From the NCBI GenBank assembly GCA_019914995.1, contig CM034132.1:9046662-9110661 (forward strand): a stretch of 64,000 nucleotides of DNA, in the 5' to 3' direction. The notes beneath the pieces are model-generated. The model ran no database searches, was not told the DNA's origin, and was given only the letters and a program-made list of their open reading frames with translations. This DNA comes from Acanthochlamys bracteata (lineage: Eukaryota; Streptophyta; Magnoliopsida; Pandanales; Velloziaceae). Position 1 is the first letter of the stretch. Every line of letters begins with the position of its first letter. The position numbers and the translations under genes were made by a program. Below, piece after piece: positions 54,201 to 56,709 of the stretch.

Positions 54201-55382
54201 AAAATTAGCGTAACTCTAATTTCTTAGTTAAATTTTAAATAGTTTATATATATTTAGTTATATAAAAAATTTAAAATTTTATTTTTATATTCAAAATTTT
54301 AATTCTAGTTTTTATTTATATATTTTCTAATATAACTATATTTTTTAATTTTTAACATATTTTTTAAATTTATTGAAACATAAATACTGAACTATAATTC
54401 TAGTTTAATTTTTAAAAAATTTTATTTTATTTTTTATTTTTATAAAACTCAATTTAAAGTATTGCACTGAATAAATGTTTAGCAATACGAATCTACTGGT
54501 TTCTGTGGGTTGTATGATCGGTGCAATGATTTTGAAAATTTTTGAATACAAGTCGTATTCATACTCAGTTAATGTTGCTTCCATTATTGTTATGTTAGAG
54601 GTCCTATTTTACAAAATAACGGTTTTTTGCAGCGACTGTTTATTACTAATTTATCACAACATCCAATCCCTCAACTTGCTATAGTTAATCATAGAGGTCC
54701 GAGTTTGTAAAGTTTTGACAACGAAATGCAATCGCTGTTTCAGGAAGGTAAAAGAATCAGTAAGCAGCAGGCATCCGGTTTCAAGTCTTTTTGACTACTT
54801 TTTATAATAGATATTTTATTTTATGATAAATTTTAATAGTGTTTAGAAGTTTTCTTAAAGCTTGAAAAATACAAATAAATTTCACCTCATAAATTTATAT
54901 ATTTAATTTATTATTTAAAAAAATACTAAACTTAGTTTTACAAAAAATTTAAAATAAAATTTTTTTGTAAGCAACTTTTGTATTATAAATAATTTCAAAC
55001 GCCTCTTAGCTATTAGCTACAAGCTGCTGCTTACAATCAGAAGCGGCACTACTGCAGAAGCTGAAAGCTCCCACAAAAGAAAAAAGCAGGGAGTCCAATA
55101 AGCTTTGAGATTCACGCTTGGTTGATTTTTAATATTACCACCACCAGAGCTTTTTCTAAAACGAAATAAGCGGCATTTTGATGTAGATAGATTGATTTAA
55201 TCACAGCCATTCGTTCCTGATCGGGCTTTAAATTTCTTTGCTTCACTCTGAAAAATTGTCTCCCTGTTCGTATTCTCTTTGTTTGGGTTTTGGAAACCAA
55301 CACTAGAAAACCCAGAAACTAAAAGCCAGAGAGAAAAGATTAAAAGATTTGTGTGTTGGTTTTGCTTTGCAGCAGAGTTTGG
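51214..55382. other. Spacer upstream of the ERF gene
   Basis: No gene is supported. 52920-53100 is a balanced-composition patch with CCACGTCATCAC and CTCCCGCCAAAA words. 53345-53575 and 54190-54470 look like eroded MITEs (GTTTGACA and GGTGTGTTTCAA ends). 55020-55380 is probably the ERF promoter and first leader exon. Confidence 0.45.
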
Positions 55383-55442
55383 ATGATAATCTTCTTCTAC
55401 TTGTTGTTGTTGTTTTGTTCTTATTGTTTCGTATGCAATTGA
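55383..55442 (+). CDS. Possible first uORF of the ERF gene (19 codons)
   Basis: ATG at 55383, hydrophobic Leu-rich product, stop TGA at 55440-55442. Its stop overlaps the start of the next uORF (ATG 55433). It is translated only if transcription starts upstream of 55383, which the sequence does not prove. Confidence 0.35.
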   Translation: MIIFFYLLLLFCSYCFVCN

Positions 55443-55891
55443 AGATTAGTGAAGCCTGGAGAAAGTTCGCTTCGCGTTTCAGAACAAGGTAAGGCTTGTC
55501 TTACTAGATTTTGGTTCGTTTCTTCGAATTTTATGCTATGCAGTTACAGTTCTTTGTCGCTGGTTGTGTTTTTTGGTGATTTTTCGTTCTGGTACAGCTT
55601 TTCTTCAGCGTCTTCGCTTCTTTCACAAATTTCGCCTTACCCATTTCTTCGTTGTTGCAGTTTTTTGTTGGTTTTTTTTGTTTTACCCAAATTTTGGTTC
55701 TGTTTGTCAGTTTCCCAATTTTTTCCTTGTAATCAGATTCCATTTCAGTGCTTTCTTCTAATTGCATCTGAAGATTCTTCATACACTGAACAAAATCTTT
55801 TTTTCTTTTCTTTTGTTGTTTCAGCTGCTCTGAAGAAGTAGAAGCAGCAGAACACAAGCAACAATGCCAGCTCTTCAGAGTCCGGAGTTAA
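55433..55891 (+). CDS. Intron-split upstream ORF of the ERF gene, overlapping the main start
   Basis: The exons are 55433-55488 and 55825-55891, giving a 40-codon peptide beginning [16 protein letters not shown]. The donor (ACAAG|GTAAGG) and the acceptor (TTTCAG|CTGC) are strong. The second half runs in another frame across the main ATG at 55864 and stops 28 bases inside the main ORF. Arabidopsis At1g68550, a CRF-type ERF, is annotated with a conserved-peptide uORF (CPuORF53, At1g68552, from memory), so this is probably its counterpart. Expected effect: ribosomes that translate it pass the main start, lowering ERF output. If the intron stays in, the peptide ends after 19 residues, at TAA 55490-55492. 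Confidence 0.65.
55489..55824 (+). other. Leader intron of the ERF gene, inside the uORF
   Basis: 336 bases, T-rich, from GTAAGG to TTTGTTGTTTCAG. Its removal is what joins the two halves of the uORF and brings the main ATG within 40 bases of the splice junction. Confidence 0.65.
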
Positions 55892-56709
55892 AGAAAATGC
55901 CCAGTAAGAAAACCACTCTCTCAAAATCCCTGAAATCCACAAAACCCAAAATCAAGAAGCTCCGTGTCTTCTTCTCCGATCCAGACGCCACCGATTCTTC
56001 TTCCAGTGACGATTCCTATCCACCTAAACCTAAAACAATCATCCAAGAAATCCTTCTAACTCCCTTGAAACAACAACCTCTTCCTCTCACTTCGCCTGAA
56101 TCCGCTTCCCCTGAAACCACTTGCACAACCACTTCCGAGAAAAAAAGTGTTTCTGCTACTAACAAGTATCGAGGCGTTCGACAACGGAAGTGGGGGAAGT
56201 GGGCAGCTGAAATCCGCGACCCAACACGCGGCGTGCGCATGTGGCTTGGCACGTATGACACTGCTGAAGAAGCCGCACGTGCCTATGACTCCGCTTCTCA
56301 ACGGATCCGTAAAAAACTCAGCTCTAAACCCGCTAAAACCCAACCCGCTTCCACTACGTCATCCGAATCCGTTTCTTGCAAAGCGAATGCAATCCACTCC
56401 CCGTCATCCATTCTCCCTACCGTTGGATCGCACAACAATCGTCAAGATTGCCCTGCACAGAAAGAAGTGGTGGAAACGGGCTGCGGGTTTGAACTGGAAT
56501 GGAACCCGTTTGGTGTTGGAGAGTTGGGGGAAATGAGCGTGTGGGAAGAGGAACTGATCGTAGGAATGGGCGGCGCACCGTGGAAGCGGAAGATGAACGG
56601 TGGAGATTTTCTTGATTTGGATCAAGAGTCGCTTAAGTGGATGGAGATGGAGTGGAGCGGCAACAGCAGTACCGGCGGTGTTCGTGAAGACGCAATTTTT
56701 GTAGCTTAA
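55864..56709 (+). CDS. CRF-like AP2/ERF transcription factor (group VI-L type)
   Basis: Single coding exon, 281 residues. The N-terminal CRF domain is [20 protein letters not shown] (residues 31-50). One AP2/ERF DNA-binding domain starts [20 protein letters not shown] (101-120), then [19 protein letters not shown] (127-145). The [10 protein letters not shown] form is typical of CRFs. The AP2 domain ends RIRKKLSSK and lacks the usual Asn-Phe end, as in the CRF-like subgroup VI-L (ERF116-119; CRF10-12). The C-terminus is acidic with Trp motifs ([16 protein letters not shown]), a likely activation region. Acts in the nucleus on GCC-like promoter elements; CRF proteins also contact cytokinin phosphorelay proteins. 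Its leader carries a spliced uORF that overlaps this start, so translation is probably regulated. Confidence 0.9.

Follow-up and report, generated by a model that had tools for sequence, protein, structure and literature searches.

A uORF overlapping the start codon of a clade-B CRF/ERF gene in Acanthochlamys bracteata, probably distinct from the conserved uORF of At1g68550

In the predicted spliced leader of a CRF-like ERF gene from Acanthochlamys bracteata, a 40-codon upstream open reading frame (here termed uORF2) runs through the start codon of the main ORF. We consider it likely that uORF2 is an ordinary main-ORF-overlapping uORF in the leader of a clade-B CRF/ERF gene, one that is specific to this gene copy, leaky, and moderately damping. 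Its peptide is probably not a conserved peptide of the At1g68550 type, and the main product of this analysis is the correction of an attractive homology claim, with a likely relocation of the HG21-type uORF to two other genes, on contigs C13 and C14. The comparison also describes a pair of duplicate transcription-factor genes that retain the upstream ATG (uATG) yet differ in the overlap of the uORF with the main start.

Anatomy of the leader and its predicted translation

The stretch of DNA that was analyzed, referred to as the window, is 64,000 nt long and lies on contig C7 of a 195.5-Mb genome (Table 1). The ERF protein encoded here has an AP2 domain (E 1.6e-14) and the core of the CRF domain, without the TEH region (judged by eye against PMC3095348), and it includes the sequence SPSSIL, which resembles SP(T/V)SVL. 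The CRF domain core together with an AP2 domain and no TEH region is the combination found in clade-B CRF proteins; given the published CRF-domain features and the definition of this type (PMC3095348), the CRF domain core without the TEH region places the window gene in clade B, of the group VI-L type.

Table 1. Features discussed in the text (window positions unless a contig is named).
Feature	Position	Strand	Description
TATA-like box, TTTAAAT	55227..55233	+	GGCTTTAAATT; conserved in the C12 paralogue
uORF1	55383..55442	+	19 codons; weak context, T at -3, A at +4
uATG block	55422..55449	+	26 of 28 bases identical in C12; limits set after seeing the alignment
uORF2, exon 1	55433..55488	+	18 codons + 2 nt; weak uATG context ttgtttcgtATGc
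Predicted leader intron	55489..55824	+	GTAAGG...TTTCAG; phase 2 of uORF2; 336 nt
uORF2, exon 2	55825..55891	+	TAA at 55889-55891; other frame, 28 nt beyond start of main ATG
Six AG acceptor-like sites (candidates only)	55836..55851	+	exon starts 55836, 55839, 55842, 55845, 55848, 55851; each fuses uORF2 in frame to the ERF
Main ORF (CRF-like ERF)	55864..56709	+	281 aa; start context caacaATGc
Clade-B CRF gene L060	C13:7539000-7545600		uATG 1465 nt 5' of main ATG
Clade-B CRF gene L061	C14:106300-112600	minus	uATG 1333 nt 5' of main ATG

The frames, the intron (55489-55824), the 40 codons and the 28-nt overlap described in the earlier note were all reproduced exactly on recomputation. The splice signals read AAG/GTAAGG at the donor (55488/55489) and TTTCAG/CTG at the acceptor (55824/55825). 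With the predicted intron removed, uORF2 comprises 40 codons, ends at 55891, and overlaps the main ATG at 55864 by 28 nt in a different frame, which is the arrangement of a main-ORF-overlapping uORF, provided that the intron is spliced; with the intron retained, the frame stops after 19 codons, at the donor. The leader junction (55488/55825) is a prediction, supported by an intron that can likewise be read in the paralogue on contig C12. A second, shorter frame, uORF1 at 55383, was omitted by the earlier note. Its last 10 nt are also the first 10 nt of uORF2, and its stop lies 85 nt from the main ATG in the spliced leader.

The TATA-like box lies 206 nt from the uATG in the window and 195 nt in the C12 paralogue, and transcription would be expected to begin approximately 30 nt 3' of this box. 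That the box is matched in the paralogue suggests a transcription start upstream of the uORF. It is unlikely, in our estimation, that uORF2 is absent from the usual mRNA, whether through a transcription start downstream of 55435 or through other splicing that removes it: alternative starts and splicing that omit uORFs have been described in plants (PMC11062462), but both the box some 200 nt upstream and the end of exon 1 are conserved in the two copies.

The plant start consensus has A or G at -3 and G at +4 (PMC11062462). The contexts in this leader are gtttggATGa at 55383, tttcgtATGc at 55433, and caacaATGc at 55864; neither uATG matches the consensus at either position (55433 has C at both -3 and +4), and the main ATG matches it at -3 (A). 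Because both uATG contexts are weak and the main ATG has the better context, leaky scanning is expected and tight repression is not, and many ribosomes would leak past 55433. Those ribosomes that do start at 55433 would translate 40 codons and terminate 28 nt beyond the ERF start, and would thereby be lost to the ERF. Ribosomes that begin at 55383 would instead move past 55433 and terminate 85 nt short of the ERF ATG, at which they may reinitiate. The earlier claim that reinitiation at the main ATG is possible only by backward movement consequently holds for ribosomes starting at 55433, and does not extend to uORF1 ribosomes, since these would pass 55433 and stop 5' of the main ATG.

With this arrangement, ERF translation would be damped to a moderate and adjustable degree. 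The anatomy of the leader gives sound reason to expect that some ribosomes are diverted from the main ATG, and plain competition for ribosomes between the uATGs and the ERF ATG is the best-supported mechanism; the splicing in vivo, the translation of uORF1 and uORF2, and the size and direction of the effect are inferred from the sequence. Of the tight repression that had been predicted earlier, what remains plausible is some diversion or repression, and the weak uATG, the A at -3 of the main ATG, and the bypass by way of uORF1 do not predict that it would be tight. If repression were shown, the ATG at 55433 would offer an ordinary means of adjusting expression of the gene.

The chance expectation for such an overlap was obtained by assuming a transcription start at 55200, 55260, 55340, or 55400 and making 4000 dinucleotide shuffles of each resulting leader. 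An overlapping uORF occurred in 33, 28, 34, and 26% of the shuffled leaders, respectively, and an overlapping uORF of at least 40 codons occurred in 7, 4, 5, and 3%. With 26-34% of shuffled leaders containing one, the overlap as such is unremarkable; an overlapping uORF with a length of 40 codons is somewhat unusual, and this figure of 3-7% counts against reading uORF2 as an ordinary uORF. Potential AUG uORFs are present in 30-70% of plant genes (PMC11062462).

Comparison with the C12 paralogue

The closest paralogue of the ERF protein, encoded on contig C12, is 69% identical over residues 6-281, and the two main ORFs differ with a dS of 0.59 and a dN of 0.20. Outside the uATG block (Table 1), the identity between the two copies is 66% in the leader 5' of the block, while the remainder of exon 1, the intron, and leader exon 2 show 59, 60, and 62%, respectively, as taken from global alignments in which the low figures are rough. 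The conservation of the uATG block at 26 of 28 bases appears to be more than a purely accidental uORF would need, and argues against pure accident; because the block begins 11 nt 5' of the window ATG, it may be the nucleotide sequence that carries the stronger signal. Separately, the promoter blocks at 55095-55120 (25 of 26 bases shared with C12, by hand count on the alignment) and 55190-55234, in which CCAAT and TTTAAAT motifs occur, show good conservation between the two duplicates, whereas the leader intron has diverged in both length and sequence.

The C12 leader can be read with exon 1 interrupted at the matching position by a GT...TTTCAG intron, which ends shortly 5' of the main ATG and is 578 nt long as compared with 336 nt in the window. 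The C12 uORF has an earlier in-frame ATG, is 45 or 21 codons long, and ends in TGA 32 nt 5' of the main ATG, with no overlap; by this reading of the two leaders, the overlap with the main ATG is not conserved in C12, the only close relative available. The ATG of uORF1 (55383) is not present in the C12 leader.

The uORF peptides of the two copies are partly conserved at their ends and frameshifted in the middle. For the middle of exon 1, the best explanation is a pair of indels, of 1 nt and 4 nt, whose joint effect is to restore the frame, such that AWRKFA and DRESSLH are different readings; these indels were read by hand, and MAFFT instead set a single 3-nt gap with many mismatches. Because of the frameshifted middle, silent and replacement substitutions were counted only in the two 7-codon ends of the uORF, a selective choice in which SRFRxSC was picked after the fact. 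In this segment, SRFR(T/A)SC, which comprises the seven codons up to and across the junction, five of the six substitutions are silent and one is a replacement, and 0.5-0.6% of random six-substitution variants change at most one residue. These counts offer hints of selection on part of the uORF2 peptide, which as a whole shows at most patchy constraint on this evidence.

A degenerate DNA pattern of the uORF start, allowing up to three mismatches, was found at 25 places genome-wide as compared with 3 for the reversed control; the window itself was the only place without a mismatch, and the C12 paralogue was not among the 25. A protein search of the genome with uORF2 (E up to 10) scored two candidates, both of them its own exons, and did not recover that of the paralogue; the short exons limit the reach of this search.

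In another reading, uORF2 would be the first exon of an alternative N-terminus, spliced without a change of frame to the ERF through weak acceptors farther downstream to give an N-terminally extended protein. Of the seven window AG sites that follow the main acceptor and precede the ATG, six would leave a continuous reading frame into the ERF (Table 1), as would all three of the C12 AG sites after the main acceptor (L010 1440-1449) and two C12 AG sites 5' of it, and isoforms that fuse a uORF to the main ORF are a described class (PMC3426882, PMC7106846). We nevertheless regard this as very unlikely. A run rich in pyrimidines precedes the main acceptor, TTTCAG, while the downstream sites lie in purine-rich sequence in which AAG/CAG triplets account for in-frame acceptors with no need for selection; furthermore, the two window AG sites scanned 5' of the main acceptor (55749, 55774) give no fusion, and the two copies use different frames through the middle of exon 1, which is unlike the behavior of a conserved protein terminus. 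More improbable still would be a three-state switch in the leader, in which uORF2 represses when the main acceptor is used, uORF1 steers ribosomes past uORF2 to reinitiate at the ERF, and weak tandem acceptors give an N-terminal extension, with the duplicates set differently; such a switch, were it real, would have an overlapping uORF in one duplicate and a terminating uORF in the other, and we give it hardly any credence relative to an ordinary, copy-specific overlapping uORF.

HG21 and the clade-B genes on C13 and C14

The earlier note had proposed that the window uORF is the counterpart of a conserved uORF in At1g68550. The existence of the latter is borne out by Hayden and Jorgensen, for whom At1g68550 and At1g25470 constitute homology group HG21, with uORFs of 87-90 codons that have conserved N- and C-termini, a Ser+Thr content of 22-25% with an ST-rich stretch (11-12 in 17-22 residues), and a Ka/Ks of 0.44-0.47 (PMC2075485). 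At1g68550 is also known as CRF10 (PMC3426882), and a homologue of CPuORF53/54 occurs in physic nut in the VI-Lb gene JcERF053 (PMC4778941). The window uORF has 40 codons and 15% Ser+Thr, both outside the HG21 ranges, and it lacks the conserved N- and C-termini, as judged against the C13 and C14 uORFs, whose own HG21 identity is deduced.

Two further clade-B CRF genes of A. bracteata, on C13 and C14, come nearer to the HG21 description. Their predicted spliced uORFs have 103 and 108 codons, respectively, start with MSAGL, end with GFLVKYLGFKHIQP(T)NTLFIFVRETFT, and stop 193 and 229 nt 5' of the main ATGs used. Between the two uORFs, dN is 0.03 and dS 0.18 over the last 28 aligned codons, and 0.23 and 0.26, respectively, over the whole; the C-terminus is clearly constrained. 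The N-termini share only their first five residues and a few others, with four replacement and no silent differences over the first 12 codons. Ser+Thr amounts to 18% in C13 and 22% in C14, and the richest 22-residue stretch holds 7 and 8 of these residues, in partial agreement with HG21. Both uORFs are longer than the Arabidopsis HG21 range, by 13-21 codons, yet nearer to it than the window uORF. These partial fits in length and Ser+Thr, and the differences in the first 12 codons, count against the reading favored here. When the C14 peptide was compared with the whole genome (E up to 10), the four candidates scored were the two exons each of C13 and C14. On the basis of the published description, these are likely the HG21 genes, and the At1g68550-type regulatory uORF of the A. 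bracteata genome is most likely located at C13 and C14.

The window uORF shows no similarity to these uORFs: 93% (C13) and 68% (C14) of 5000 shuffles score as well as the actual comparison. For the C12 uORF, the corresponding values are 17 and 33% of shuffles for the first 16 residues and 26 and 79% for the whole, and the best blastp-short match of the C12 uORF to C13 has an E of 0.30. The gene tree was built from 14 ERF proteins, hand-chosen from 30 loci (96 matches) of this genome. In this tree, the window and C12 proteins (100/99) and the C13 and C14 proteins (100/100) form separate pairs; the four join with a support of 81/84, a node for which the program warns of long branches. The window protein falls with clade B here, in another pair than C13 and C14.

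With respect to this clade, uORF2 could be an eroded HG21 counterpart, had the clade-B ancestor possessed the uORF, the subclade lost the conserved C-terminus, and the window copy lost its original start and stop. In both gene pairs the uORF is interrupted in phase 2 by the predicted leader intron, a point against the favored reading, although a shared phase has a one-in-three chance, and the C12 uORF starts with MSVG where those of C13 and C14 start with MSAG, a likeness that is not significant. Additionally, the C-terminal exon of the C14 uORF (residues 81-108) has a tblastn match at window positions 55221-55304 (10 of 28 identical, ungapped, E 0.34 in a 22-kb search); this match was taken as chance because it falls on the TATA-like box, 5' of the uORF, and no such match was reported for C12. 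As the window and C12 uORFs otherwise score like shuffles against C13 and C14, we consider such erosion quite unlikely. The window uORF was therefore dropped as the likeliest reading of the At1g68550 HG21 counterpart in favor of C13 and C14, which fit better and have no similarity to it; it is probably not that counterpart, on a comparison with the HG21 description (which C13 and C14 approach, though not fully).

Comparison with known systems

The HG21 uORFs, CPuORF53/54 of At1g68550 (CRF10) and At1g25470 (CRF12), resemble the window uORF in being located in the leader of a clade-B/VI-L CRF gene. They differ from it in their 87-90 codons and conserved ends, whereas the window uORF has 40 codons and, unlike the C13 and C14 uORFs, overlaps the main ORF. 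According to PMC11062462, which cites Bazin et al. (2017), phosphate deficiency derepresses the uORF-containing CRF10 transcript; no such response should be assumed for the window gene. A comparison of At1g68550 with rice AK102277 describes a second uORF, of 96 nt in Arabidopsis and 117 nt in rice (PMC2527020). By description, to which this comparison is confined, the 96-nt uORF is closer in length than HG21 to the 40 codons of the window uORF, but it ends 95 nt (in rice, 150 nt) 5' of the main ORF without overlap, whereas the window uORF overlaps. The listing of this shorter uORF counts against the reading of uORF2 as an ordinary uORF.

Within the literature searched, which included few subscription papers, no description of a uORF in a gene of the window type was found, and in the accessible portion of PMC9305500 nothing was found on HG21, CRF, ERF, AP2, or overlap. 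The ESUCA screen omits overlapping uORFs by design (PMC7106846), so that such cases are easily missed by this approach.

The layout of uORF2 is that of generic main-ORF-overlapping uORFs with leaky scanning, including a uATG in a poorer context than the main start; the short uORF ahead of it, which reaches into its first codons, is a difference from these, and nothing else distinctive was found. In the ATF4-type pair, a short first uORF is followed by an overlapping inhibitory uORF, and the short uORF1 5' of the overlapping uORF2 gives the window leader a likeness to this arrangement. It differs, however, in that uORF1 ends 10 nt inside uORF2 and its ATG is absent in the paralogue; because uORF1 ends inside uORF2, the start of uORF2 would be bypassed without delayed reinitiation.
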